Shown here: positions 7,288 to 26,558 of the stretch, in pieces
How positions within the stretch are numbered: the first letter of the stretch is position 1
How the letters are laid out: each line of letters begins with the position of its first letter
DNA from: Gemmatimonadales bacterium
GTDB taxonomy: Bacteria > Gemmatimonadota > Gemmatimonadetes > Gemmatimonadales > GWC2-71-9
Direction: 5' to 3'
Assembly (NCBI GenBank): GCA_025937755.1
Contig: JAICQR010000011.1
Span: 1-35,088, forward strand
DNA: 35,088 nucleotides
Program-made: the position numbers and the translations under genes
The notes under the pieces: model-generated
Told to the model about the DNA's origin: nothing
The model's database searches: none
Seen by the model: only the letters and a program-made list of their open reading frames with translations

Positions 7288-8418
7288 ATGTCCAACACCG
7301 CGGAAAACCCAGACTTCGAGTCCTGGCTTCACCACCTCACCGACGAAGCCGACGCAGCCTTCCTGTACCGCGAACTGGCCGGCCTGGAGCGCGACCCGGA
7401 GCGGGCCCGGCTCTACCGCCAGCTGGCGGAGGTCGAGGACCGCCATGTCGCGCTGTGGCGGAAGCTGCTGGCCGACCAGGGCCGGGAGGTAGGGGTCCCC
7501 AAGCCGTCGCTGGGCGCCCGATTCCGGGCCTGGACCGCTCGCCGGCTGGGTCCCGGCGTGCTGCTGCCGGTGCTGCTCCAGGAGGAGGGCCGTGAGGTCA
7601 AGGGCTACCTCCAGCTCTACAAGGATGCACCGGACGGGCCTTCGGGCCCCACCGCCCTCCAACTGGCGCGCGAGTCGAAGGAGCATGCCGAGACCCTCGG
7701 CCACATGGCCGGCCGGGAGGGCGAGCCGTGGCACCGGACCGGAGCCGGCGGATTTCTTCGCAATGTGGTGTACGGCTTCAACGACGGCCTGACCGCCAAC
7801 TTCGGGCTCGTAGCCGGCATGATCGGCGCCCAGCAGAGCATGGCATCCGTTGAGCATTTCCTGCTGGTGGCCGGCCTGGCAGGCACCGTGGCGGATGCGC
7901 TGTCGATGGGCGCGTCGGGCTACCTCGCGGCCAAGAGCGAGCGCGAGGTGTTCGAGCACGAGATTGCGATGGAGCGCGAAGAGATCCGGTTGATGCCGGA
8001 ACTGGAGCGAGAGGAACTGAGTCTGATCTACCAGGCCAAGGGTATTCCCGAGGAGCAGGCCGGGCAGCTGGCCGCGAAGGTGATGGAAGATCCCGAGCGC
8101 GCGCTGGCGGAGAAGGTGCGCGAGGAGCTCAAGATCGGCGACGCCACCAGCACCCCGATGCGCGAGGCCTGGATTACCGGCACCGCCACGGCGCTTGGCG
8201 CGATCATACCGGTGGCTCCGTTCCTGTTCTCCACCGGCCGCACCGCTATCTGGGTGGCGTTTGCGCTTGCCATGCTCTCACACTTCGGCGTAGGCGCCAT
8301 GCGCAGCATGTTCACCGGCCGCAGCGTCATCCGAAGCGGGATGGACATGTTCCTGGTGGGCCTGGGTGTCGCGGTGATCGGCTACTTCGTCGGGGAGTGG
8401 ATCGTCGGGATCTTGTAG
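7288..8418 (+). CDS. ferritin-like / VIT1 fusion, metal-ion transporter (MbfA-like)
   Basis: A 376-residue fusion. Residues about 5-145 form a ferritin-like (erythrin) four-helix unit with Glu/His pairs expected to bind two metals: YRELAGLE, AEVEDRHVALW, LLQEEGREVKGYL and ARESKEHAETL. Residues about 155-376 match the VIT1/CCC1 family: VVYGFNDGLTANFGLVAGMIGA, VADALSMGASGYLAAKSERE, and several C-terminal membrane helices. MbfA-type fusions export iron (or manganese) across the inner membrane and protect against iron and peroxide stress. The ATG at 7288 is preferred to an in-frame ATG 30 bases upstream because it fits the domain edge and the -10 spacing. Eight-base repeats begin at its TAG stop. 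Confidence 0.9.
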   Translation: MSNTAENPDFESWLHHLTDEADAAFLYRELAGLERDPERARLYRQLAEVEDRHVALWRKLLADQGREVGVPKPSLGARFRAWTARRLGPGVLLPVLLQEEGREVKGYLQLYKDAPDGPSGPTALQLARESKEHAETLGHMAGREGEPWHRTGAGGFLRNVVYGFNDGLTANFGLVAGMIGAQQSMASVEHFLLVAGLAGTVADALSMGASGYLAAKSEREVFEHEIAMEREEIRLMPELEREELSLIYQAKGIPEEQAGQLAAKVMEDPERALAEKVREELKIGDATSTPMREAWITGTATALGAIIPVAPFLFSTGRTAIWVAFALAMLSHFGVGAMRSMFTGRSVIRSGMDMFLVGLGVAVIGYFVGEWIVGIL

Positions 8419-8463
8419 GGCGGTAAGGCGGGAAGGCGGTAAGGCGGGAAGGCGGGAAGGCAC
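8416..8463 (+). repeat. 8-base tandem repeat starting at a stop codon
   Basis: The TAG of the VIT1-fusion gene opens the unit TAGGGCGG, followed by TAAGGCGG or GAAGGCGG units at 8424, 8432, 8440, 8448 and a degenerate one at 8456. Because the period is 8, the repeated TAA triplets fall in different frames. It is related to the unit at 34313. Confidence 0.85.
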
Positions 8464-8465
8464 GA

Positions 8466-8588
8466 GCCCCGCTGCCTCCCGCAGGCGACGTGGCTCGGCG
8501 GGTCGCCCCCGGCAGGATGCATCCCTCGCGACGCCCTCCGATGTGGGGCGGCCCGCCGGCCTCAGGCGCCGGAGGGAGGCAGCGGGGC
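8466..8588. other. long nested inverted repeat between convergent genes
   Basis: Outer arms 8466-8480 and 8574-8588 are a perfect 15-bp inverted repeat. Inside them, 8497-8509 and 8545-8557 form a 13-bp stem with a single G-U wobble, extended by one C-G and one G-U pair. A 10-base palindrome, GGATGCATCC, lies in the inner loop (8515-8524). The element has no open frame of interest and lies between the ends of the VIT1 and prfC genes. It could be a bidirectional terminator, a structured RNA or a dispersed palindromic repeat. Confidence 0.65.
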
Positions 8589-8599
8589 GAGCGTATAGG

Positions 8600-8638
8600 T
8601 CGCCGAGCCGCCGAGCCGCCGAGCCACCCAGCCGCCTA
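8600..8638 (-). repeat. 8-base tandem repeat starting at the prfC stop
   Basis: Read on the minus strand, the TAG at 8638-8636 opens TAGGCGGC, followed by TGGGTGGC, two TCGGCGGC and a TCGGCGAC unit, all 8 bases long. It mirrors the plus-strand repeat at 8416. Confidence 0.8.
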
Positions 8639-10249
8639 TGGCGCTACTGCATGGAACGCGATCTTCGTCTCCCGATCCACCGTACCTCGCAGCGTGTACT
8701 CGTTCTCGAACAGGATCAGCGGCGCCTCGCGCGAGTCGAATACCAGCTTCTTGCCGTAGCCGTCGCCCACCCGGCGGATCTCGTCCGCATCTCCGACGAC
8801 CCAGCGCGCCAGCGCGAACGGCAGCCGGTCCAGCTTGGCTGGCACACCGTACTCGTTCTCCAGCCGGTGCAGCAGCACGTCGAACTGCAGCGCTCCCACG
8901 GCGCCGACGATCGGACTGGGACCGATGTTGGTGTCCTCGTAGAACACCTGGGCCGCGCCTTCCTCGCTCAGCTGCCGGAGCCCGGTATCGAGTTGCTTGC
9001 GCCGCATCGGGTCGGCCAGCCGCACCCGCGCGAAATGCTCGGGTGAGAACCGGGGAATGTTGCCGAACTCGAGCGGCGGACCAGTCACGATGGTGTCGCC
9101 CACTCTGAGCGTCCCCCGGTCGTGGAGACCGATGACGTCACCCGGCCACGCCTCTTCCACCAGCTTCCGCTCCCGTGCCATGAATTGCTGCGGTGCCGCC
9201 AGCCGGATCGGCCTTCCGCTCCGCACGTGCAGCGCGGCCATGCCCGCGAGAAACCGCCCCGACACCAGCCGCACGAACGCGATCCGGTCCCGGTGCTTGG
9301 GGTCCATGTTCGCCTGGATCTTGAACACGAATCCGGTCAGCTCGGCATGCTCGGGCGTTATGATCCCGGCCGAGCTTTCGCGCGGCAGCGGCGCCGGCGC
9401 CAGCGGCAGGAACGCCTTGAGAAACGGCTCCACCCCGAAATTGGTGAGCGCGCTGCCGAAGAACACCGGCGTCAGGGTGCCGTCGGATACCGCATCGGCG
9501 TCGAACTCCTCACCTGCTGCGTCCAGCAGTTCCAGTTCGTCGCGGAGCGCCGTCACCACGCCTTCGCCCAGCCGCTTGATGACCGCCTCGTCGTCCAGCG
9601 ACCCCGCCGCTTCGGCCGCACGCCCCGATCCGTGGTCTTCACCCTTCTCGAACAGCCGCACCAGACCGGTAGCGCGTTCGAACACGCCAAGGAAAGTGTG
9701 GCCATCAAAGATGGGCCAGGTCACCGGGTAGCAGCGGATGCCGAGGTCGGCCTCGACATCACTGATCAGCTGCAGCGGCGGCGCGCCCACCCGGTCGCAC
9801 TTGTTGACGAAGGTGAAGATGGGCGTGCGCCGCAGGCGGCACACCTCGAACAACTGGCGGGTGCGTTCCTCGACCCCGCGCCGGTTGTCGAGCAGCATCA
9901 CCGCGCTGTCGGCCGCAACCAGCGTGCGATAGGTGTCTTCCGAAAAGTCCTGGTGTCCGGGAGTGTCCAGCAGATTGATGTCGAAGCCTGAGTACTCGAA
10001 CTGCATCACGCTCGACGTCACCGAGATGCCGCGCTCCTGCTCCAGCGCCATCCAGTCGCTGGTGGCATGCCGGGTGGCCCGCCGCGCCTTGACCGCGCCG
10101 GCCATGTGGATCGCGCCGCCATAGAGCAGCAGCTTCTCCGTCAGCGTCGTCTTGCCCGCGTCCGGATGGCTGATGATCGCAAACGTGCGGCGCCGGGCGA
10201 TGGCCTCGGCGAGCTCGTCGGGGCTGACGGACTGGGCTGGACTTGTCAA
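8636..10249 (-). CDS. prfC: peptide chain release factor 3 (RF3)
   Basis: A 537-residue translational GTPase. RF3 recycles RF1/RF2 from the ribosome after termination, in the cytosol. The GTP-binding motifs are in place: SHPDAGKT at 27-34, DTPGHQDF at 95-102 and NKCD at 149-152, followed by domain II and the RF3-specific C-terminal part (VGALQFDVLLHRLENEYG). The length fits E. coli RF3 (529). The start is taken as TTG at 10249, overlapping the leuS stop as TTGA: no ATG or GTG lies between it and the first GTPase motif, and the resulting N-terminus matches the family. The frame is open further upstream, but that would lie inside leuS. Expression is probably coupled to leuS. Confidence 0.95.
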   Translation of the reverse strand: MTSPAQSVSPDELAEAIARRRTFAIISHPDAGKTTLTEKLLLYGGAIHMAGAVKARRATRHATSDWMALEQERGISVTSSVMQFEYSGFDINLLDTPGHQDFSEDTYRTLVAADSAVMLLDNRRGVEERTRQLFEVCRLRRTPIFTFVNKCDRVGAPPLQLISDVEADLGIRCYPVTWPIFDGHTFLGVFERATGLVRLFEKGEDHGSGRAAEAAGSLDDEAVIKRLGEGVVTALRDELELLDAAGEEFDADAVSDGTLTPVFFGSALTNFGVEPFLKAFLPLAPAPLPRESSAGIITPEHAELTGFVFKIQANMDPKHRDRIAFVRLVSGRFLAGMAALHVRSGRPIRLAAPQQFMARERKLVEEAWPGDVIGLHDRGTLRVGDTIVTGPPLEFGNIPRFSPEHFARVRLADPMRRKQLDTGLRQLSEEGAAQVFYEDTNIGPSPIVGAVGALQFDVLLHRLENEYGVPAKLDRLPFALARWVVGDADEIRRVGDGYGKKLVFDSREAPLILFENEYTLRGTVDRETKIAFHAVAP

Positions 10250-15907: not shown

Positions 15908-17052
15908 GAGATCCGCTCCAGGAAGTTGCGGGCCACCCGCGTCGCATTCTCCCACGTGACCCCCGAGAGCTGCAGTGATGTCACCAGCCCGTCGCGTGGG
16001 GCGCCCAGCGCCGCAGCGCGCACGATCACGTCATACAATCCGGGCAGCTTCCGGAACCTGCGGGCGCAGATCGCCGTGCGCAGGCGCGAGCCCTCGCGCT
16101 CGAGGTTGCGGGTGGTGCAGCGGAACTCGGTCACTTCGCGTTCGCTGGCCCAGGTGGCCGGCGAGCCATCACCGAAGTGGCTCTCATAGAGCGTGTAGAA
16201 CCGGAACCGGTTGAGCTCGTCGGTCGAGAGCACCTCGTGGGTCACCTCGACCACGCCGGTCCACTGCCCTTCCGAGAGGTAGAGGTAGTCGTCGGTGCCG
16301 CAGTAGTGGGTGACCCGCTCGTAGGGCTCGTCCGGCTCGCGCGACGCGTCCCCCCAGCACTTGAACCACGCCGCCGGACGGGTCGGCACTCGATAGCGGC
16401 CGATGGTCACGCTCGGTACATCCGGCTCGAACAGCCCATTCAAGTAGACGTCCTGATAGGCGCGGATCTGGCTGGCAGCATCGGTCAGCAGCGAGTCAGG
16501 CCGGACGTAGTCCTGCGCCGTGATCCGGTCCACCAGCTCGATGACCCGGTCCACTGGCACCAGGAAACTGATCTCGTTGCCTTCGGTGGAGACGTTGACG
16601 CCCACCACCCGGCCGTCGGGCAGGATCGCGGGCCCCCCGCTCACGCCCGGATTCAGCGAGCCGGAGAAATGGATCTTGGGATACAGCGTGTGGCGCAGCA
16701 GGCCGTTCCAGGTACCCTCGACGATGCTCAACCCGAGATCACGCGGATGGCCCAGCGAGAGCACCCGGTCGCCCTGGTCGGGCTCGACGTTCGACAGCGC
16801 GAACCAGGATGGCGGGGTCCACGCTGCCCGCAGCAGCGCGAGGTCGTGCACGACGTCGATCCCCAGCAGTTCCGCCACCAGCGTGTCGCCCGCGGCGTTC
16901 ACCACCCGAGGCGCGTAACGTCCCGGCTCCCGCACCACCTCGGCCACCACGTGATAGTTGGTGACCAGCAGCCCCTGGCCGTCCACGAAGAAGCCGGAGC
17001 CGAGGCTCGCCTTGGCCGCGGCCCCGTGCTCGGCGATCTCGACCTTGACCAC
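15895..17052 (-). CDS. trypsin-like serine protease (S1C/HtrA-type core)
   Basis: A protein of at least 385 residues. Counting from the GTG at 17052, the catalytic triad is His34 (TNYHVV), Asp70 (HDLALL) and Ser138 (NPGVSGGPAI). The protease core covers about residues 1-195; the remaining 190 residues have two Cys-containing segments and match no domain I recognise; no PDZ motif is seen. Upstream of 17052 the frame stays open and encodes a typical signal peptide (hydrophobic run LLLCALLLPVSLTAQ at about 17105-17149), yet no ATG, GTG or TTG precedes it. The true start may be non-standard, for example ATT at 17211, so the protein is probably exported to the periplasm. Coupled to the FHA gene. 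Confidence 0.85.
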   Translation of the reverse strand: MVKVEIAEHGAAAKASLGSGFFVDGQGLLVTNYHVVAEVVREPGRYAPRVVNAAGDTLVAELLGIDVVHDLALLRAAWTPPSWFALSNVEPDQGDRVLSLGHPRDLGLSIVEGTWNGLLRHTLYPKIHFSGSLNPGVSGGPAILPDGRVVGVNVSTEGNEISFLVPVDRVIELVDRITAQDYVRPDSLLTDAASQIRAYQDVYLNGLFEPDVPSVTIGRYRVPTRPAAWFKCWGDASREPDEPYERVTHYCGTDDYLYLSEGQWTGVVEVTHEVLSTDELNRFRFYTLYESHFGDGSPATWASEREVTEFRCTTRNLEREGSRLRTAICARRFRKLPGLYDVIVRAAALGAPRDGLVTSLQLSGVTWENATRVARNFLERISWSQ

Positions 17053-17213
17053 CCGCTCGGCGAAGCGGCGGAACGCCGCAGCGGTGGTGCTGTTCTCCTG
17101 TGCCGTCAGGGAAACAGGAAGGAGCAGTGCGCACAGGAGCAGGTGCGCGAGGACACGCGGCGTTGGGGCGGAGATCGGGGACCTCGCTGGGGATGAGCGC
17201 GAAAGTCTAATGC

Positions 17214-17219
17214 TATCTT
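17214..17219 (+). promoter_or_regulatory. putative -10 element TATCTT heading the cyanophycin gene cluster
   Basis: TATCTT ends 6 bases before the ATG at 17226 with no Shine-Dalgarno sequence. It lies at the very edge of the divergent protease reading frame. Confidence 0.5.
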
Positions 17220-17225
17220 TGCTGG

Positions 17226-18077
17226 ATGGAATCCTCTCCCGGCGGAAGCCCGGCGATTCGGGCGCTTCGCTCCGCCTTCCGCACCGTTGGGCCCATCGCG
17301 CCCCGCACCGCAGCCCGTGTGGCCGAGCGGATCTTCTGCCGCCCGCCGAGGCCGACGGTGCGGCCCCAGGAAGAAGCCTACCTCGCGACCGGCGAACGCT
17401 TCACCGTTCGGGCCAATGGCATCGAGCTCGCCTGCTGGCGCTGGGGCACGGGACCGCTGGTCATGCTCACCCACGGCTGGGGCAGCCGGGCTGGGCGCTG
17501 GTCCTCGCTGATCCCGCTGTTGCTCGAGTCGGGACTGTCCGCAGTGGCGTTCGATGCGCCGGCGCATGGCCGCTCCTCCGGCAACACCGCGTCCATGCCC
17601 GAGTTTGCCCGCGCCCTCCTGGCCGTTCGCGCGCATCTCGGTGCGGCGCCGCGCGCCGCCGTGGGCCACTCGCTGGGCGGTGCCGCCACCGCGCTCGCGC
17701 TCAGCATGGGATTCGACGCCGGCCGCGCGGTGCTGATTGCGGCACCATCCAACGCCCGGGAGTTCACCGACCGCTTTGCCGAGACGCTGGCCCTGCCTGT
17801 GGCGGTCCGCTCCAGGATGGAACAGAACCTCGAGGCCCGGCTACAGTTCACCTTCGCCGGACTCCACATTCCGACGCTGGCGGCGGGACTCCGCACACCG
17901 GCGCTGCTGGTGCACGACACCGGCGATCGCGACGTGCCCTTCTCCGGCGCCGAAGCGGTGGCAGCGGCGTGGCCCGGTGCGCGACTCATGGCCACCACCG
18001 GACTGGGCCATCGCAAGGTGCTCCACGATCCAGCGGTACTGCGCGAGACACGGGACTTCATTCTGGCCGGCGCGTGA
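17226..18077 (+). CDS. alpha/beta hydrolase
   Basis: A 283-residue alpha/beta hydrolase. The oxyanion-hole segment is LTHGWGSRAG at 81-90, the nucleophile is Ser149 in VGHSLGG, the acid is Asp234 or Asp236 (DTGDRDVP) and the base is His262 (GLGHRKV). A basic N-terminal extension of about 50 residues precedes the fold (AIRALRSAFRTVGPIAPRTA), with no clear signal peptide, so it is probably cytosolic. The substrate cannot be read from the sequence. It is the first gene of a coupled set that continues into cyanophycin metabolism; whether it takes part in that pathway is open. The next gene starts inside its stop codon (GTGA). Confidence 0.9.
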   Translation: MESSPGGSPAIRALRSAFRTVGPIAPRTAARVAERIFCRPPRPTVRPQEEAYLATGERFTVRANGIELACWRWGTGPLVMLTHGWGSRAGRWSSLIPLLLESGLSAVAFDAPAHGRSSGNTASMPEFARALLAVRAHLGAAPRAAVGHSLGGAATALALSMGFDAGRAVLIAAPSNAREFTDRFAETLALPVAVRSRMEQNLEARLQFTFAGLHIPTLAAGLRTPALLVHDTGDRDVPFSGAEAVAAAWPGARLMATTGLGHRKVLHDPAVLRETRDFILAGA

Positions 18078-18340
18078 TCGTGATCGACCGCGAGAACCTC
18101 CTCGCGCCCGGCTGGTCCCACGTCGTGTCTACCACCAACGACATCGGCGAACTCGAGGACTTCCGGCGCCGGATTGGCGCCCCGACGGCCGCCCTCCAGC
18201 TTGGAAATCCCGACTGGCCCCATCTCGACCTCACGGGCCACGTGCGTCTGGACGCGCTTGCGCTGCCCGACGTGATTGTGGTGTCCACCACACGCGACCT
18301 CATCCGTTACGTACGGCACCAGCGCACGGTAACTTCCTGA
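18074..18340 (+). CDS. small DUF4031-like protein
   Basis: An 88-residue protein that is easily missed because its frame is open far upstream. Its GTG at 18074 overlaps the hydrolase TGA as GTGA, and it ends 2 bases before iadA, so it is embedded in the operon. Features: N-terminal VIVIDRENL, WSHVVST near residue 14, ELEDFRRRIGAP at 26-37, HLDLTGHVR at 50-58 and VSTTRDLIRYV at 70-80. The order (HLVS-like, LxxFA.RLG, HYDL, VSxRELVR) resembles the short DUF4031 family, whose function is unknown. It is hydrophilic and probably cytosolic. Family match is by eye only. Confidence 0.7.
   Translation: MIVIDRENLLAPGWSHVVSTTNDIGELEDFRRRIGAPTAALQLGNPDWPHLDLTGHVRLDALALPDVIVVSTTRDLIRYVRHQRTVTS
18330..18335 (+). 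promoter_or_regulatory. possible internal -10 element TAACTT before iadA
   Basis: TAACTT lies 7 bases before the iadA ATG at 18343, inside the end of the preceding small gene. If active it would give a leaderless iadA-cphB-cphA transcript separate from the hydrolase. Confidence 0.4.
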
Positions 18341-18342
18341 CC

Positions 18343-19512
18343 ATGCTCCATCTCCTGCTCAACGCGGACCTGTACACTCCGGAGTCGCAGGGCCACCGGC
18401 ATGTACTCGTCGCCGCAGACCGGATCGCCTGGATCGGAACCGACCGGCCCGATCTCCCCGCGTCGGTCGGGGTCGAGGTCACCGACCTCGAAGGCCGGAA
18501 GGTCATTCCGGGGCTGATCGACGGTCATGTCCACATCACTGGCGGTGGAGGCGAGGCCGGCCACGACACCCGTGTCGCCCCCATCGCGCCCAGCCAGTTC
18601 ACCCGCAATGGTGTCACCACCGTGATCGGGCTGCTGGGCACTGACGACGTCGTCCGCACTCCGGCGGAAGTGGTGGTCACCGCACTCGGCCTTCGGGCCT
18701 CCGGGCTTTCCGCCTGGTGCTACACCGGCGGATACCACCTGCCCCCCGCCACGGTAACCGGCAGCGTGCGGGGCGACCTCGCCCTGGTGGAGTGCATTGT
18801 CGGCGTGGGCGAGCTGGCCATCAGCGATCATCGGTCGAGCCAGCCGACCCTGCCTGAGCTGCTGCGGGTGGCAGCCGATGCCCATGTGGGCGGGCTCATG
18901 TCGGGCAAGGCCGGTGTGGTCCACCTGCACGTGGGCGACGGTCCCCGCGGGCTCGAGCTCATTCGCGAAGCCCTTGCCCAGGGCGAAGTGCCGGCTGCGG
19001 TGTACCACCCGACCCACGTGAACCGGAGGCGCGCGCTGTTCGACGAAGCGCTGGAGCTGACGGGGGAAGGGGTCACGGTCGATGTCACCGCCTTTCCAGT
19101 GAGCCCGGACGAGGATGCCTGGTCGGCCACCGATAGCGTGCTGCGCTATCTCGACGCGGGAGCTTCGCCGGATCGCCTCACGGTGAGCAGCGATGCCGGC
19201 GGCTGTCTTCCCAGGTTCGACGACGCCGGCCGGGTCACCGGCATGGGGGTGGGTCATCCAGGCACCATGTCCTGTACTCTCGCCGGCATCACCTCGCGAG
19301 GCGTGCCGCTCGAGCGGGCGCTTCCACCCTTTACCTCCAATGTGGCGAGACACCTGATGCTCGAACGCAAGGGGCGCATCGCGGCCGGCATGGACGCCGA
19401 TCTCGTGGTGCTGGATGAACGCATGGGCGCGCACGCAGTGATGGCGCGGGGCCGTTGGCATGTGCGCGATGGCAAGGTGGTGGTGAAGGGCGCGCTCGAA
19501 GGGGCCGCATGA
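18343..19512 (+). CDS. iadA: beta-aspartyl (isoaspartyl) dipeptidase
   Basis: A 389-residue amidohydrolase. IadA splits beta-aspartyl dipeptides; in cyanophycin breakdown it would release Asp and Arg from beta-Asp-Arg. The E. coli metal ligands are matched: His62 and His64 (DGHVH, then ITGGGGEAG), His196 (HLHVGD), His225 (PTHVNR) and Asp284 (SSDAGG). The bridging lysine of E. coli IadA (Lys162) is replaced by Glu157 in GVGELAISDHRS. Length and order match the family throughout, up to RGRWHVRDGKVVVKG near the end. It follows the small gene by 2 bases, and cphB starts in its stop codon, so it belongs to the cyanophycin unit. Confidence 0.94.
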   Translation: MLHLLLNADLYTPESQGHRHVLVAADRIAWIGTDRPDLPASVGVEVTDLEGRKVIPGLIDGHVHITGGGGEAGHDTRVAPIAPSQFTRNGVTTVIGLLGTDDVVRTPAEVVVTALGLRASGLSAWCYTGGYHLPPATVTGSVRGDLALVECIVGVGELAISDHRSSQPTLPELLRVAADAHVGGLMSGKAGVVHLHVGDGPRGLELIREALAQGEVPAAVYHPTHVNRRRALFDEALELTGEGVTVDVTAFPVSPDEDAWSATDSVLRYLDAGASPDRLTVSSDAGGCLPRFDDAGRVTGMGVGHPGTMSCTLAGITSRGVPLERALPPFTSNVARHLMLERKGRIAAGMDADLVVLDERMGAHAVMARGRWHVRDGKVVVKGALEGAA

Positions 19513-20396
19513 CCAGCACCCGCGTTTCGGGACACGACCGCTCCGACGCCAGCATTGTCGTGCCGGAGAACCGCCGTAAGAACGGCGCCGGGTTCGCCAT
19601 TCCGGTCGGCGGCGCCGAGGAGAAGGCGGGCCCCAGTGTGATCCTCCGCCGCTTCATGGCGCTGTGTGGCGGCGAGAAGGCCAACATCGCCATCATCCCG
19701 ACCGCTTCCGAGGTGAGCGACACCGGCGACCGCTACGCCCGGCTGTTCCAGGACTTCGGCGCGGCGAGGACCACCATCCTTCCGATTGTGTCGCGGGCCG
19801 ATGCCGGCCGGGAGGATTATGTGCATGCGCTGGACGACGTGTCCGGCATCTTTCTCACCGGCGGGAACCAGCTGCGGCTCTCGACCATGATCGGCGGCAC
19901 CGACATGTCGCGCACCATCCGGCTGCGGCACGCCGCCGGGGTGCACGTGGCCGGTACCTCCGCCGGCGCATCCTTTCTCTGCGAGCACATGATCGCTTTC
20001 GGCGAGGAAGGATCATCTCCCCTGGCCGGCGCAGTGACGCTCGCCCCCGGCCTGGGACTCAGCAACTCGGTCATCATCGATCAGCACTTCCGCCAGCGCG
20101 ACCGCCTCGGCCGGCTGCTGACCGCGCTGGCCTACAACCCGTTCGCCATCGGCATCGGGCTGGACGAGAACACGGCGGCCTTCATCGGCCCCGACAACGT
20201 GATTGAAGTCGTCGGGAGCGGAGCGATCACCGTGGTGGACCCCAGCGAGCTCGAGTTCAGCTCCATGGCGCGGGTCCGGCGCAACGACCCCGTCTGCCTG
20301 ATCGGGATTCGCCTGCATGTGCTGGATCACGGCTCGACCTTCGACTTGCATACCCGCAAGGCCCTCCCCGCGATGGAACTGGCGGAGCGCCCCTGA
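19509..20396 (+). CDS. cphB: cyanophycinase
   Basis: A 295-residue S51-family serine peptidase that cuts the cyanophycin polymer into beta-Asp-Arg dipeptides. The catalytic residues are Ser151 (AGTSAGAS), His193 (IDQHF) and Glu220 (GLDENTA); their spacings of 42 and 27 residues equal those of the Synechocystis enzyme (Ser132, His174, Glu201). AIIPTASE at 61-68 and IFLTGGNQ at 114-121 are also typical. There is no signal peptide, which fits an intracellular enzyme rather than a secreted CphE. The N-terminus is about 20 residues longer than usual. The ATG at 19509 overlaps the iadA stop as ATGA; cphA begins 15 bases after its stop. Confidence 0.96.
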   Translation: MTSTRVSGHDRSDASIVVPENRRKNGAGFAIPVGGAEEKAGPSVILRRFMALCGGEKANIAIIPTASEVSDTGDRYARLFQDFGAARTTILPIVSRADAGREDYVHALDDVSGIFLTGGNQLRLSTMIGGTDMSRTIRLRHAAGVHVAGTSAGASFLCEHMIAFGEEGSSPLAGAVTLAPGLGLSNSVIIDQHFRQRDRLGRLLTALAYNPFAIGIGLDENTAAFIGPDNVIEVVGSGAITVVDPSELEFSSMARVRRNDPVCLIGIRLHVLDHGSTFDLHTRKALPAMELAERP

Positions 20397-20402
20397 CAGT
20401 GC

Positions 20403-20406
20403 GGAG
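20403..20406 (+). promoter_or_regulatory. ribosome-binding site of cphA
   Basis: GGAG 5 bases before the ATG at 20412. It favours this ATG over the in-frame GTG at 20406. Confidence 0.6.
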
Positions 20407-20411
20407 TGGCC

Positions 20412-23198
20412 ATGAAGATTCTTGATCGTGCGGTATATGTCGGACCCAGCCTCTATGCCCACTTCCCCGTCATACGACTGGACGTCGATCTGGGCGAGCT
20501 GGAAGACTGGCCCTCCGCCCGCCTGGGGGAGGGATTCATCGACGCGCTGCTCGACGCCCTTCCCGGCCTCAACGAACATGGCTGTTCCTTCGGCGAGCCG
20601 GGCGGGCTGGTGCGCCGCCTGCGCGAGGGCGAGGGCACCTGGATGGGCCACATCCTCGAACATGTGGCCATCGAGCTCCAGAACATCGCGGGGCATCACA
20701 TCACGTTCGGCAAGACCCGCTCGCTCGGCCCCCGCGGGCACTACTGGATCGTGTACCAGTATGAGCAGCGCGAGGTGGGGCTCGAGGCGGGTGCGCTCGG
20801 CCTGACGCTGCTCGAAAGCCTGCTGCCGCCCGACCTGCGCACCCCGCAGAGCGTCCCTCCCGATTTCGATTTTGCCGCCGAGCGCGACGACTTCATCCGC
20901 TTTACCCAGCGCCACGCCCTGGGGCCCAGCACCGCGGCGCTGGTGCAGGCCGCCACCGAACGCGGAATTCCCTGGCTCCGCATGGGCACCAACAGCCTGA
21001 TCCAGCTGGGGCACGGCCGCTATCAGCGACGGGTGCAGGCCACCGTCACCAGCCAGACCTCCCATATCGCGGTGGAGCTCGCCAGCGACAAGGAAGAGAC
21101 CAACAAGATTCTCGCCAGCCTTGGACTCCCGGTACCGCAACAGGAGCTGGTGACGACCGAGGATGGCGCCGCCGAGGCAGCGGGTGAGATCGGGTATCCG
21201 GTGGTGGTGAAGCCGTACAATGCCAACCACGGCCGCGGCATTTCGATCCACATGACCGATGAGGGGCAGGTGCGCTCGGCGTTTCATGTCGCGCGCGAGC
21301 ACAGCCGCAGCGTCATCATCGAGCAGTTCGTGACCGGGCTCGACCACCGGATGCTGGTGATCAACGGAGCGCTGGTCGCGGTGTCCCAGCGGCTGCCGGG
21401 CAATGTGGTAGGCGACGGCAGGCATACGGTGGCACAGCTTGTCGAGCTGGTGAACGCAGACCCGCGACGCGGCATCGGTCATGAGAAGGTGCTGACCCGG
21501 CTGGAACTGGACCCGCAGGCGTCGTCCATGCTGGCCCGCTCGGAGCTGACGCCCGACTCGGTGCCCCAGCCGGGCCAGCTGGTGTTCCTCCGCTCCACCG
21601 GCAACCTGTCGACCGGCGGCACCGCGACCGACATGACCGACGTGGTCCATCCCGACAACGTGGAGATGGCGGTGCGCGCGGTGCAGGCAGTCGGGCTGGA
21701 TGTGGGCGGCGTGGACTTTCTCTCGCCCGACATCACCCGGTCCTACAAGGAAGTCGGCGGCGGAATCGTCGAAGTGAATGCCGCGCCCGGATTCCGGATG
21801 CACATGGCACCCAGCGAGGGGAAACCGCGCGATGTGGCCGGCCCGGTGGTGGACATGCTCTTCCCTTCCGGCTCGCCCAGTGCCATCCCCATCGCGGCGG
21901 TCACCGGGACCAACGGCAAGACCACCACGGCGCGGATGCTGGCGCACCTGCTCAAGATCACCGGGCACCATGTCGGGCTCACCACCACCGACGGGGTGTA
22001 CATCGACGGCCAGCGCACCGTGGCGGGCGACATGACCGGCCCGGTGGCGACCCGGATGGTGCTGGCCGACCCGTTCGTGGATGTGGCGGTACTCGAGGTG
22101 GCGCGCGGCGGCCTGCTGCGCGCCGGCCTGGGCGTCCGCCACGTGGACGTGGGCGCGGTGCTCAATGTGCAGGAGGACCACCTTGGTCTCGGTGGCGTCA
22201 ACTCCCTCAAGGATCTCGCCAAGGTGAAGCGGGTCGTGGTCGAAGTGGCCCGCGACACCGCGGTGCTCAACGCCGATGATCCGCTCTGCCTCGCCATGGC
22301 GGACCACACCTCGGCCAGGCACGTGTGCTACGTGACGATGAACCCGTCGCACGAACTGGTGCGCGAGCACATCCAGGCTGGCGGCAGGGGATGCGTGCTG
22401 GAGTCAGGCATGACCGGGCAGATGATCACGCTGTACGACCACGGCGCCCACATCCCGTTGCTGCCGGCCCACCTCATTCCGGCGACTCTCGACGGCCGGG
22501 CGATGCACAACGTGAGCAACGCGATGTTCGCCGCCGCGATGGCCTTCAGCATGGGCATGAAGCTGGAATCCATCCGCCACGGCCTGCAGACCTTCGACAC
22601 CACGTTCTTCCAGGCGCCCGGACGCGGCAATGTGTTCGACGACCATCCGTTCAAGGTGATCCTCGACTACGGCCACAACGCCGCGGCGGTGCAAGCCATG
22701 GTCCGGTTTGTCGAGCGGCTCGGCACCGCGGGCCGGCGCGTGGTGGTGTTGTCCGCGCCCGGCGACCGGCGCGACGAGGACATCGCCCAGTCTGCCCGCA
22801 TGGTAGCCGGGTACTTCGACCGCTACATCTGCCGCCGCGACGACAACCCGCGAGGGCGGGGCCCGGACGAAGTACCCCAGCTGCTGCGCACCGCGTTGAT
22901 CGAGGAGGGCGTTCCGCCCGATGACATCGAGGTCATCCCCGACGAGCGCGAATCGCTGCATGTGGCGCTCACCGAGTGCCGAGCCGGCGACCTGCTGCTC
23001 TTCTTCGGCGACAACATCACCCGCTGCTGGGAGCAGATCGTCAACTTTCATCCGATCGATGTCGAGCGCCGTACCGTGCGGCGTCCGATCGAAGGACCAG
23101 GCGCCACTGTTGCACCCGACGGGTCGGCCGCTCCCCGGCCCTTCGTGCGTGACACTCGGGGCGTGCGCCTGGCGCGTGAGACCGAGGGCGAGGATTGA
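20412..23198 (+). CDS. cphA: cyanophycin synthetase
   Basis: A 928-residue enzyme that builds multi-L-arginyl-poly-L-aspartate from Asp, Arg and ATP in the cytosol. Three parts are visible: an N domain (about 1-160) with HILEH at 80-84; an ATP-grasp domain (about 215-485) with VVKPYNANHGRGI at 265-277 and LSTGGTATD at 399-407, which adds aspartate; and a Mur-ligase-like domain (about 490-880) with P-loop TGTNGKTT at 498-505, which adds arginine. The C-terminus continues with a Mur C-terminal fold (ILDYGHNAAA) and a Pro-rich tail. Both ATP sites look intact, so this is a full CphA1-type enzyme. The following gene starts in its stop codon (TTGA). Confidence 0.97.
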   Translation: MKILDRAVYVGPSLYAHFPVIRLDVDLGELEDWPSARLGEGFIDALLDALPGLNEHGCSFGEPGGLVRRLREGEGTWMGHILEHVAIELQNIAGHHITFGKTRSLGPRGHYWIVYQYEQREVGLEAGALGLTLLESLLPPDLRTPQSVPPDFDFAAERDDFIRFTQRHALGPSTAALVQAATERGIPWLRMGTNSLIQLGHGRYQRRVQATVTSQTSHIAVELASDKEETNKILASLGLPVPQQELVTTEDGAAEAAGEIGYPVVVKPYNANHGRGISIHMTDEGQVRSAFHVAREHSRSVIIEQFVTGLDHRMLVINGALVAVSQRLPGNVVGDGRHTVAQLVELVNADPRRGIGHEKVLTRLELDPQASSMLARSELTPDSVPQPGQLVFLRSTGNLSTGGTATDMTDVVHPDNVEMAVRAVQAVGLDVGGVDFLSPDITRSYKEVGGGIVEVNAAPGFRMHMAPSEGKPRDVAGPVVDMLFPSGSPSAIPIAAVTGTNGKTTTARMLAHLLKITGHHVGLTTTDGVYIDGQRTVAGDMTGPVATRMVLADPFVDVAVLEVARGGLLRAGLGVRHVDVGAVLNVQEDHLGLGGVNSLKDLAKVKRVVVEVARDTAVLNADDPLCLAMADHTSARHVCYVTMNPSHELVREHIQAGGRGCVLESGMTGQMITLYDHGAHIPLLPAHLIPATLDGRAMHNVSNAMFAAAMAFSMGMKLESIRHGLQTFDTTFFQAPGRGNVFDDHPFKVILDYGHNAAAVQAMVRFVERLGTAGRRVVVLSAPGDRRDEDIAQSARMVAGYFDRYICRRDDNPRGRGPDEVPQLLRTALIEEGVPPDDIEVIPDERESLHVALTECRAGDLLLFFGDNITRCWEQIVNFHPIDVERRTVRRPIEGPGATVAPDGSAAPRPFVRDTRGVRLARETEGED

Positions 23199-24937
23199 CC
23201 GCCGAACTCGAGGCGCGCCGCCTCACCGGCCCGCACCTGCTCGATGATCGGCAGGGCGCGGCACTCGATGTGCCCATCACCGAGGGAGACGAGCGCCTGC
23301 TCGACCTCTGGGAAGCGGAGGCGCGTCGGCTGCTCACCGCGGTGGGCTGGGCCGGCGAGCGCACCCACGTCCGGCGATTCGAGGGCGGCGCGAGCCTGGT
23401 GCTGACGGCGCCCATCGATACGCTCTACAGCGCCACCGAAGTGGCCGAGGCAGCGTGGGCTGCCGCCTCCGCGCGATTCAGGGGCGAGAAGCCCGACCCC
23501 GCCGCAGCCGACCGATTGCTGGACGCCATCCAGCAGGAACGACGACACCACATTCGCGCGCTGGAAGCCGAAGCCACTCGCCGCAACGTGACCTTCCTGC
23601 TCGACGACGAGGGTGTGTCGGTGGGCACCGGCGTCGGCGCGCTGGTGTTTCCGCTTGATGCCGTGCCCGAAGTGGCCGATGTCGACTGGCATCGAGTGCA
23701 CGATGTCCCGCTGATCCTGGTGACCGGGTCCAACGGCAAGACCACATCGGTGCGATTGGTGGCGGCGATGGCCGCGCACGCCGGCCTCGTGGCAGGCGTC
23801 GCCAACACCGACGGCATCACCGTGGGCGGCGCCCTGCTCGAAGCCGACGACTACAGCGGCCCCATGGGCGCCCGCCGGGTGCTGCGTCATCCCACCGTGC
23901 AGGTGGCGGTACTCGAGACCGCGCGCGGTGGCATTCTCCGGCGGGGCCTGGCCGTGCGCCGGGCCGACGCCTCGCTGCTCACCAATATCTCCGAGGATCA
24001 TTTCGGTGACTGGGGCGTCAATTCGCTTGCGGCACTGGCCGAAGCCAAGCTCGTCACCACCAGGATCGTCCCCGAGGATGGCGCCATCTGCCTCAACGCC
24101 GACGATCCGATCCTTCGCGAGCGAGGCGCGGAACTGGGAGCCCGGGTCTGCTGGTACTCCCTCCGGCCCGATGTCCCCGAACTGGCGCAGGGCCGGGCAG
24201 CGGCGTGGCTCGATGGCACCGCACTCATGCTGCGACGCGGTGCCGATACCAGCCGCCTGATGGACGTGACCAGCGTGCCGCTCACGCTCGATGGCCGGGC
24301 CCGCTACAACATCAGCAATGCACTGGGAGCCATGCTGGCCGCGGCTTCACTGCGCCGGGACGGGAAGTCGCTCGTTTCGATGGGCGCGATGCGCGCCGCG
24401 CTGGAAGGCGTCCGTGGCAGCATCGACGACAATCCCGGACGCGGCAACCTGATCGAGCTGGGCGGCGTGCACGTCCTCATCGACTATGCCCACAATCCGG
24501 CTGGTCTCGAGGCACTGGTGCAGATGGCGGGGGCAATACCGTCGGAACGGCGGCTGGTGGTGCTGGGCCAGGCGGGAGACCGAACCGACGACGCGCTCCG
24601 CGCGCTCGCCCGCGCCGCGTTGCGGCTCGACCCGTCCCGCATCATCCTCAAGGAAATGGGTCACTACCGCCGCGGCCGGGAGCCGGGCGAAGTTCGCCGC
24701 ATCCTCGCCGACGCACTCGAGCAGGCCGGCGCGGCGCCCGACATGGTGGTCTCGGTGGACACCGAAGCCGAGGCCGCGGAGTCGGCCCTCGGCTGGGCCA
24801 GGGAGGGAGACCTCCTGTTGCTGCTCACCCACGAAGAACGGGGCCAGGTGCTGGACCTGCTCCGCGATCTCAAGGCCCGGCGCTGGCGGCCAGGCCAGGC
24901 CGTCACGCCTGCATCAGCTGCTCCAGCGCCGAACTGA
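23195..24937 (+). CDS. Mur-ligase family protein, CphA-related, lacking the ATP-grasp half
   Basis: A 580-residue protein starting with TTG at 23195 inside the cphA stop (TTGA). Residues 1-170 form an N-terminal part (EARRLTGPHLLDD, HVRRFEGGASLVLTAPIDTLYSATE) unlike the ATP-grasp domain of CphA. Then comes a Mur-ligase domain with P-loop TGSNGKTT at 177-184, a CphA-type core (AVLETARGGILRRGL, then SEDHFGDWGVNSL) and a Mur C-terminal domain (VLIDYAHNPAGLEAL). Shared segments such as ARGG.LR.GL make it a relative of the second half of CphA. Its likely substrate is an Asp or Arg derivative or the polymer itself (inference). Its end overlaps the convergent L,D-transpeptidase gene by 35 bases. Confidence 0.9.
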   Translation: MTAELEARRLTGPHLLDDRQGAALDVPITEGDERLLDLWEAEARRLLTAVGWAGERTHVRRFEGGASLVLTAPIDTLYSATEVAEAAWAAASARFRGEKPDPAAADRLLDAIQQERRHHIRALEAEATRRNVTFLLDDEGVSVGTGVGALVFPLDAVPEVADVDWHRVHDVPLILVTGSNGKTTSVRLVAAMAAHAGLVAGVANTDGITVGGALLEADDYSGPMGARRVLRHPTVQVAVLETARGGILRRGLAVRRADASLLTNISEDHFGDWGVNSLAALAEAKLVTTRIVPEDGAICLNADDPILRERGAELGARVCWYSLRPDVPELAQGRAAAWLDGTALMLRRGADTSRLMDVTSVPLTLDGRARYNISNALGAMLAAASLRRDGKSLVSMGAMRAALEGVRGSIDDNPGRGNLIELGGVHVLIDYAHNPAGLEALVQMAGAIPSERRLVVLGQAGDRTDDALRALARAALRLDPSRIILKEMGHYRRGREPGEVRRILADALEQAGAAPDMVVSVDTEAEAAESALGWAREGDLLLLLTHEERGQVLDLLRDLKARRWRPGQAVTPASAAPAPN

Positions 24938-26558
24938 CCTGCTCCAGCGTGCCCGACGTGTCGGGCGAGCTGAGTTTCTGCAGTGCCTTCCGGTCGTTGC
25001 CGTAGAGGTCCTCCCGGAACTGGATCTTGCCGTCGCGCTCGAAGGCGGTGAGGTACAGGATGAACACCGGCACCGTCGGCTCCACCTTCACCGTCTTTGA
25101 CTCCGGCGCTGACATCGCCTCGCGGATGCGGGCGGCATCCCAGTCTCCGCTCGGGCCCAGCACGTACTCGGCAAACTGCGCCGGGTGCTGCAGCCGGATG
25201 CAACCGTGCGACGCTGCGCGCCGGTTGGCGTCGAACGTCGCCTGGGTCGGCGTGTCGTGCATGTAGATCGAGAACCGGTTGGGGAACAGGAACTTGACGC
25301 CACCGAGCGCGTTGCCTGCGCCCGGTTTCTGCCGGACCCGCCATGTGAAGTCCGCCGAGTCCGCATCCCAGTCCACATCGTCGGCCTCCACCACCTTGCC
25401 GCTTTCGTCCACCACTTCGTAGTTGTTGGCGGCGAGCCAGTCGTCGTTGTTGCGCACCTTCGGGATAATCTCGTTGACGGTGATGCTGCGAGGCACGTTC
25501 CACTCCGGACGGAAGACCACCATGCTGAGCGTGTCGGCGAAGACCGGCGTGGCACCCTCATACTCTTCGCCCACCACCACCCGCATGCTCAGCACTTCCT
25601 TGCCGGCATCGAAGGCAAAGAGCCGGAAATCGGGAATGTTGACGATCACGTACCGGTCCTGGAACGCCGGCGGCAGCCACCGCATCCGGTCCAGGTTGAT
25701 CTCGATCTGGTGGATCCGGTCTTCCACTGGCACGTCCAGCTCGCGCAGCATCGCGGCGTCGACACCCTCGCCCTCCGGCAGGTTGTGCCGCTCCCGGAAG
25801 CTCGCGACCGCCGCCGACAGTTTGTCATCGAACCGGTCACCCTCGACGTGGCTGGAATCGAGGTCACCCGCTGCCACCAGCCGATGGCGGAGCGCCGCGA
25901 CGCGCTCACCGGTGGCGGCAGGCCGGATGGCACCGCTGCCCAGCGCCTCCCATCCGCCCGACTCCGCCACCTCCCGCAGCCGGTTGAGCTCATCCAGCAA
26001 CAGGGTGTACTGCTCATGGTGCGGGCGGAGCCGGGCCAGCATCGCGTCAAAGTCCTCTTCCTGCACCGCCTCGCGCAGCACCGAATCCGCCTGGGACGAG
26101 CGGCGCTCGATGTGCCAGCTGCCATCGACCAGATCGGGATCCATTCGGCCGATCAGCATGTCGCTGCCATAGGCCAGGTACAGGGCCGTAAGCCGGAGGT
26201 CCACGTCGGCGATCTCGGAGGGCCGGGTGTCCTTGTGCTCGTAGGCGCGGAGCAGCGCGTCGCGCAACGCGGTGAGCGGGTAATCCCGCATCCGGAGTCC
26301 TTCCGCGTCCGCCTTGGCGATGGCGCTCACCAGCGCCCGCGCCCGCGAACTCGGGCGCTCGCCGTCCACCCAGAGCGCCTCGTAGTCGCGTTCAGCGTAG
26401 ATGGCCTGGAGCGCCTCCCACGAGACACCCTTCGCGAAGGGGGGCACCGAGTCGAGTGTGGCGACGGCACGAATTCCGTCGGCCACGTCCCCCTTGGACG
26501 CCCCGTCGCACCCTGCACCGAAGGTCACCGCCAGCAATATCAGAACGAACCGATTCAT
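24903..26558 (-). CDS. L,D-transpeptidase, YcbB-like, probable lipoprotein
   Basis: A 551-residue protein. The ATG at 26558 has GGAG 6 bases upstream. The N-terminus (hydrophobic, then FGAGC with Cys17) suggests a lipoprotein signal, though the lipobox is imperfect. A helical scaffold region (about 40-200) and a peptidoglycan-binding segment (about 215-275) precede the YkuD catalytic domain (about 295-470): RYVIVNIPDFRLFAF, VFRPEWNVPRSI, and the active-site motif ASHGCIRL with Cys453. Such enzymes form 3-3 crosslinks in peptidoglycan in the periplasm. It is monocistronic and overlaps the end of the Mur-ligase gene on the opposite strand. Confidence 0.93.
   Translation of the reverse strand: MNRFVLILLAVTFGAGCDGASKGDVADGIRAVATLDSVPPFAKGVSWEALQAIYAERDYEALWVDGERPSSRARALVSAIAKADAEGLRMRDYPLTALRDALLRAYEHKDTRPSEIADVDLRLTALYLAYGSDMLIGRMDPDLVDGSWHIERRSSQADSVLREAVQEEDFDAMLARLRPHHEQYTLLLDELNRLREVAESGGWEALGSGAIRPAATGERVAALRHRLVAAGDLDSSHVEGDRFDDKLSAAVASFRERHNLPEGEGVDAAMLRELDVPVEDRIHQIEINLDRMRWLPPAFQDRYVIVNIPDFRLFAFDAGKEVLSMRVVVGEEYEGATPVFADTLSMVVFRPEWNVPRSITVNEIIPKVRNNDDWLAANNYEVVDESGKVVEADDVDWDADSADFTWRVRQKPGAGNALGGVKFLFPNRFSIYMHDTPTQATFDANRRAASHGCIRLQHPAQFAEYVLGPSGDWDAARIREAMSAPESKTVKVEPTVPVFILYLTAFERDGKIQFREDLYGNDRKALQKLSSPDTSGTLEQVSSALEQLMQA

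Follow-up and report, generated by a model that had tools for sequence, protein, structure and literature searches.

Cyanophycin is both a widespread nitrogen store and a polymer of biotechnological interest, and the known synthetases responsible for its formation are single multi-domain enzymes. The question raised by the locus described here, from an uncultured Gemmatimonadales bacterium, is why the synthetase gene cphA should be followed directly by a second gene for a CphA-derived ligase (MURL), and whether an alpha/beta hydrolase (HYD) and a small protein (D4031) encoded at the head of the same row of genes participate in cyanophycin turnover. The locus points to nitrogen storage in Gemmatimonadales, a trait apparently unreported in the open-access papers retrieved, and is likely to represent a cyanophycin storage operon in which MURL serves as a dedicated partner of CphA1 and as a ligase in its own right. 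MURL is the part of the locus worth following; the role of the HYD-D4031 pair is uncertain.

Organisation of the locus

The window, the whole 35,088-nucleotide stretch of DNA analysed, is one entire contig of a 2.3-Mb draft metagenome-assembled genome (MAG; 80% complete, 226 contigs), and from the names of some of the MAGs carrying D4031 homologues we infer that the source bacterium originated in soil. The ORF map and direct reading of the sequence placed six plus-strand ORFs in a single row (17226-24937; Table 1), and confirmed the co-directional arrangement with successive GTGA, 2-base, ATGA, 15-base and TTGA junctions reported in an earlier sequence-only reading. The gene overlaps suggest a single transcript extending over all six genes. 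The unit is well bounded, since opposite-strand genes occupy both flanks: a divergent trypsin-like protease gene upstream, with its 5' end at 17052, and a convergent L,D-transpeptidase gene downstream (24903-26558), which overlaps the 3' end of the MURL gene by 35 bases. Being the only sizeable gap ahead of the unit, the divergent intergenic region is the likely promoter region; a promoter scan found no sigma-70 consensus site within it, and neither the promoter nor the terminator scans gave a signal clearly above chance.

Table 1. Coordinates of the six-gene unit and its upstream intergenic region within the window
Feature	Position	Strand	Details
Divergent intergenic region, likely promoter region	17053..17225	.	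173 bases; from anatomy only
HYD, alpha/beta hydrolase	17226..18077	+	283 aa; Abhydrolase_1 50.8 bits (cut-off 25.8)
D4031, DUF4031-like protein	18074..18340	+	88 aa; GTG start; GTGA overlap with HYD
iadA, isoaspartyl dipeptidase	18343..19512	+	ATG start; 2-base gap after D4031; TIGR01975
cphB, cyanophycinase (S51)	19509..20396	+	ATG start; ATGA overlap with iadA; TIGR02069
cphA, cyanophycin synthetase 1	20412..23198	+	928 aa; ATG start; 15-base gap after cphB; TIGR02068
MURL, CphA-derived Mur ligase without ATP-grasp domain	23195..24937	+	580 aa; TTG start; TTGA overlap with cphA

The cyanophycin core: iadA, cphB and cphA

The proposal that cyanophycin synthesis and full breakdown are encoded together was borne out, in that IadA, CphB and CphA each passed the relevant curated cut-off and gave near full-length alignments to solved enzymes. 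IadA scored 388.7 bits against TIGR01975 (cut-off 331.25), and its closest solved relative was the isoaspartyl dipeptidase 8dqn (E 1e-125), with which both the metal motif HVHITGGGGE (HxH) and the active-site segment VGE..DHRSSQP aligned. CphB scored 253.1 bits against TIGR02069 (cut-off 126.6), and its serine motif GTSAG aligned with that of the solved cyanophycinase 7uqv. CphA scored 1113.3 bits against TIGR02068 (cut-off 850) over profile positions 1-861 of 862, contained PF18921 (the N domain), RimK/ATP-grasp, Mur_ligase_M and Mur_ligase_C domains, all over cut-off, and aligned full-length with 7lgn and 7lgm. It is thus, like the CphA1 enzymes of Synechocystis (7lg5), Acinetobacter (7lgm) and Tatumella (7lgn), a full-length protein with N, G (ATP-grasp) and M domains.

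On established biochemistry, therefore, the three enzymes would provide for synthesis from Asp, Arg and ATP, followed by release and hydrolysis of beta-Asp-Arg. CphA1, which is a tetramer, would make the Asp-Arg polymer, its ATP-grasp domain adding Asp and its Mur domain adding Arg; CphB would cut this polymer to beta-Asp-Arg, and IadA would then split the dipeptide to Asp and Arg. A search of the source genome, a MAG that is only 80% complete, found no arginase.

In a wider sample of the phylum Gemmatimonadota, 69 of 298 genomes had cphA, and the 72 cphA neighbourhoods fetched were divided by similarity to the window CphA into 44 type-1 and 28 type-2 loci. The HxxEH motif of the N domain takes the form HILEH in the window CphA, with a Cys 21 residues away (Cx21HxxEH), a spacing common to all 38 type-1 CphAs bearing the motif; by way of contrast, the published primer-making motif is Cx19HxxEH, found in 83% of CphA1s (PMC9262961). 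In the Synechocystis CphA1 the equivalent N-domain site has been demonstrated to produce primers (PMC9262961), and the HxxEH site of the window CphA probably does likewise.

This core pathway is ordinary and already known in kind, clusters of iadA, cphB and cphA having been published: the available text of PMC10206079 records cphA1, cyanophycinase and iadA clustered together in 37 of the 231 genomes possessing all three. The window shares these three clustered enzymes, but adds MURL, which that text does not mention, together with the HYD-D4031 pair; there is a 4-base overlap between iadA and cphB, and 15 bases separate cphB from cphA. According to the same source, cphA and the cyanophycinase gene lie near each other in 81% of the genomes that possess the two (PMC10206079); the control at the protein level that had been deduced from co-expression of synthetase and depolymerase does not follow from the gene arrangement. 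Regulation might also work through differential translation, through the supply of substrate or through the polymer being insoluble.

MURL: domains, fold and motifs

The earlier suggestion that the unit contains two unexplained members, HYD and D4031, gained partial support as detailed below, but it missed the fact that the last gene of the row is itself unexplained. MURL consists of an N-like domain (residues about 1-165) and an M domain (about 170-560). Both Mur_ligase_M and Mur_ligase_C were matched over cut-off, with no ATP-grasp match; the score of 318 bits against the full synthetase profile TIGR02068 did not reach the cut-off of 850, and involved positions 477-859 only. Although MURL shares the amide-ligase fold and P-loop with MurE-type Mur ligases, its score against the MurE profile TIGR01085 (84.2 bits) was likewise short of the cut-off (257.3), and it was closer to the CphA M domain than to MurE.

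A structure model of MURL based on 34 sequences gave a pLDDT of 93.7, and its best Foldseek match in the PDB was the whole of Trichodesmium CphA1 (TeCphA1), the TM-score being 0.82 when normalised to the query. Since the Mur part accounts for approximately 393 of the 580 residues, a value this high indicates that much of the N-terminal 165 residues superposes as well. The N region gave no Pfam match, and profile-profile comparison with the CphA N domain yielded a marginal 27-column match (probability 3%). It is concluded that MURL is a CphA1 minus its G domain, the CphA-like character of the N region being predicted from the fold model.

The motifs expected of a functional Mur site were retained across the 34 homologues: the P-loop G[ST]NGKT in 32, DH[LFM]G also in 32, E[TV]ARGG in 31, and the lid domain in nearly all. 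The P-loop lysine of the window MURL is K182. This conservation of P-loop and Mur motifs suggests selection for catalysis, and MURL would appear on sequence grounds to be an active ATP-dependent Mur amide ligase. The HxxEH motif, carried by 38 of 41 type-1 CphAs, was by contrast found in none of the 34 MURLs.

A further difference from CphA1 concerns the putative acceptor loop, which we take to be the counterpart of the acceptor-recognition motif of MurE, the binding of Arg by its Asp-Asp pair in CphA1 being presumed by transfer from MurE. Asp-Asp was present in all 44 type-1 CphAs, whereas most MURLs carried Met or Leu in place of the first Asp, and most also contained an inserted Tyr. Because the acidic pair is lost, the amino-acid acceptor of MURL is probably bound in a different manner from Arg in CphA1, and the specificity of the enzyme for its amino acid is probably altered relative to that of the synthetase.

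Occurrence of MURL and its association with cphA

A gene for MURL was located directly downstream of type-1 cphA, and on the same strand, in 40 of the 44 loci, mostly within about 100 bases. The remaining four comprised two at contig ends, so that 40 of 42 testable loci were positive, and two (L077 and L093) without MURL. It was also missing from the cphA locus of genome G314, and MURL is therefore not indispensable. No MURL was found beside type-2 cphA at any of the 28 loci, and among 102 genomes of the family it was confined to the 27 with cphA-family hits. MURL, overlooked in the sequence-only reading, is far better conserved with cphA than are HYD and D4031.

The association also extends to another phylum. 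The cphB-cphA-MURL triad was present on Ruegeria and Shinella plasmids and in a record named Roseateles sp. XES5, and MURL was encoded directly after cphA on four proteobacterial plasmids. The MURLs of Ruegeria sp. THAF33 and Shinella zoogloeoides are WP_152460471.1 and WP_160788060.1, respectively. In a tree of M domains the MURLs of both phyla formed one clade (support 1.0) apart from the adjoining CphAs, and they therefore constitute a distinct family rather than a set of local duplications, one that may be old or may have been spread by transfer. A stand-alone partner of the MURL type was not described in the open-access literature searched, so far as the available text of those sources goes, and an earlier description elsewhere is possible; two papers on CphA1 structure deal with the Mur domain as a part of that enzyme. 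That a second ligase, derived from CphA, comes after cphA in most type-1 clusters of one phylum and turns up again in another suggests that the one-enzyme pathway of the textbooks leaves something out in these bacteria, the polymer of which may differ in composition, priming or length control.

Proposed function of MURL

A comparable known system is CphA2, which extends the polymer backbone by means of its retained ATP-grasp site. As described in PMC9262961, which cites Klemke 2016, CphA2 is a relative of CphA1 that has a single active site, is without the N-domain motif, and repolymerises beta-Asp-Arg. MURL likewise has a single active site and is without that motif, but it is the mirror image of CphA2 in that the Mur site has been kept and the ATP-grasp domain is gone. 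Set against CphA1 itself, MURL is short of both the G domain and the HxxEH motif, and having no G domain it is not expected to lengthen the polymer backbone. Its most likely reaction would be to join an amino acid to an Asp beta-carboxylate, either a free one of the cyanophycin polymer or one belonging to Asp itself or another short substrate containing Asp.

Two more specific proposals may be considered. One, which can be advanced only tentatively, is that MURL defines a new class of free-standing N-M ligases, which would prime or decorate cyanophycin using some amino acid different from Arg, or alternatively make beta-Asp-X dipeptides; the cyanophycin of these Gemmatimonadota and Alphaproteobacteria would then differ from the classical material. 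The other, which we regard as rather unlikely, is that MURL is an N-M paralogue with a redundant or regulatory role, binding cyanophycin or assembling with CphA1 and thereby modulating it, either with an unchanged Arg acceptor or with no catalysis of its own. The direct coupling of its gene to cphA is consistent with such a function, as are retention of the CphA fold, with an N domain that the model places as in CphA, and the binding of polymer by the N domain of CphA1 (PMC9262961). However, almost every one of the 34 MURLs keeps the P-loop, the acidic and His motifs of the Mur site and the lid domain, a pattern suggestive of selection for catalysis, and the change in the acceptor loop is itself conserved, as decay would not be.

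HYD and D4031

HYD contains a GHSLGG nucleophile elbow, with a candidate triad Asp (in HDTGDRDVPF) and His (in GLGHRK) read from the sequence, and its nearest solved structures are arylesterases and other esterases. The label 'DUF4031-like' previously applied to the 88-residue protein proved apt: the match to DUF4031 (PF13223) is a weak one over the core of D4031, below the curated cut-off of 25.6 bits in all three members tested (22.8 for the window protein, 17.5 and 23.6 for two relatives). To our knowledge no function has been assigned to either DUF4031 or D4031. The D4031 family comprises 16 members, which show 47-72% identity to the window protein and 25 invariant columns when aligned; D4031 is therefore a real protein. 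Its structure model was confident (pLDDT 95.8); comparison of this fold with the PDB gave no match at E <= 0.001, the best hits being at chance level, and a search of PDB sequences gave none. A phage derivation for D4031 was rejected, no match having been found in 50,697 phage records.

D4031 was found in 16 of the 102 genomes of the family and in no genome of the class sample outside it; a peptide-pattern scan of 84,980 species, which may miss distant relatives, returned 14 loci, all in Gemmatimonadales/Gemmatimonadetes MAGs. HYD and D4031 form a pair specific to this lineage and show a tendency to lie close to the cph locus, to which they are only loosely tied. The expectation that they would prove to be accessory factors was only partly upheld. 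The pair is not absent beside cphA in all relatives, the identical six-gene order being conserved in G310 (JAICNA010000004.1), but that full order recurs in this one other genus, and most genomes with cphA either carry the pair at another place or do not have it.

The reading to which we give the better, though somewhat less than even, chance is that the two are passengers: a separate module of two genes that came to lie ahead of iadA and uses the same promoter. HYD and D4031 are conserved as a pair without a cph cluster directly around them, HYD occurs in cphA-less members of genus g2, and within the samples searched D4031 occurs in a single family. What a passenger origin explains less readily is their repeated proximity to cphA in varied arrangements (upstream and coupled, upstream but distant, or downstream), which is more than one shared accident would predict, though the genomes concerned are related.

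A direct role in cyanophycin metabolism, to which we would assign something like one chance in three, would make HYD and D4031 true accessory factors of turnover, for example a second beta-aspartyl-peptide hydrolase and its small partner. Apart from the order conserved in G310, this possibility draws on the enrichment of cphA among D4031 genomes (13/16, as against 27/102 overall; Fisher p 7e-7, a value that ignores relatedness and so is inflated by it), which persisted at the level of genera (6/7 against 14/41, p 0.004). Sharon and Schmeing (PMC10206079) also consider alpha/beta-hydrolase-fold neighbours of cph clusters to be possible isoaspartyl dipeptidases. Against it, the dipeptidase step is already covered by IadA, three draft genomes (G155, G106 and G312, the absence being least certain in G312) have D4031 but no detected cphA, 13 have HYD but no detected cphA, and HYD is often unlinked, lying 125 kb from cphA in G044.

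In favour of an accessory role, in each of the six genomes, the window included, in which D4031 shares a contig with cphA or MURL, it lies within 6 kb, either up- or downstream. Against such a role, opposite-strand genes separate the HYD-D4031 pair from the cph cluster in genus g3. In G091 and G228 the pair is located 3-5 kb downstream from MURL, with opposite-strand genes intervening, a position occupied in G008 by D4031 alone. In G066, G314 and G320 the cph cluster is on a separate contig, and no MURL fragment was found on the contigs carrying D4031. In G214, D4031 is encoded 5.8 kb upstream, with an opposite-strand RND efflux system between it and cphB. This efflux system has the appearance of an insertion.

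Variation among the synthetases

The primer-making motif of this phylum's type-1 CphAs, those resembling the synthetase of the window, in which it lies in the N domain, was Cx21HxxEH, a spacing that exceeds the Cx19HxxEH of the literature by two residues; within the stretch searched, HxxEH was missing from 3 of 41 such proteins. Two type-1 loci, L077 and L093, lacked MURL, the CphA-derived Mur ligase without an ATP-grasp domain, and constitute useful natural controls; in the CphA from L077, HxxEH was not found in the stretch searched either. Convergent cphA pairs within single loci of G310 (L137, L161; MURL in between) and G314 demonstrated that some genomes have two synthetases side by side.

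A second, more distant lineage, type-2 cphA, was common in the phylum (L054, L057, L058, L067, L069, L070, L078, L081, L088, L092, L099, L101, L103, L105 and others). No MURL was present at type-2 loci among the cphA neighbourhoods compared, and the cyanophycinase-like gene, where seen, was often located some 3–4 kb downstream.

Neighbouring genes

In genus g3, HYD-D4031 (the alpha/beta hydrolase and DUF4031-like pair) was followed by genes for arginase, which would be a sensible outlet for cyanophycin-derived arginine, and the ethanolamine ammonia-lyase light chain (EutC). An unannotated small protein (WETEDNYW..RPYxxGPDYYxRFRPAYRYGFES), without a Pfam match, was encoded near D4031 on the opposite strand in ten loci, and was not found in the window's neighbourhood. 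In L131 (G214), an RND efflux system lay between D4031 and cphB as if inserted into a once-continuous unit, with no iadA seen in that stretch. Tn3-family transposase and recombinase genes adjoining the cphB-cphA-MURL triad on a Shinella zoogloeoides plasmid suggest its mobility.

Coordinates of the features described
Feature	Location	Position	Strand
cphA	window	20412-23198	+
HYD-D4031 with arginase/EutC	L127 (also L129, L130, L135)	8066-9405	arginase/EutC opposite to HYD-D4031
WETEDNYW protein	L127	4140-4565	-
WETEDNYW protein	L137	8701-9393	+
WETEDNYW protein	eight further loci		
RND efflux system	L131	4640-9968	opposite
Convergent cphA pair	G310:C72	12352-19405	
Convergent cphA pair	G314:C176	7636-13137	
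Shinella plasmid locus with triad	L178, NZ_CP086612.1	31214-48866
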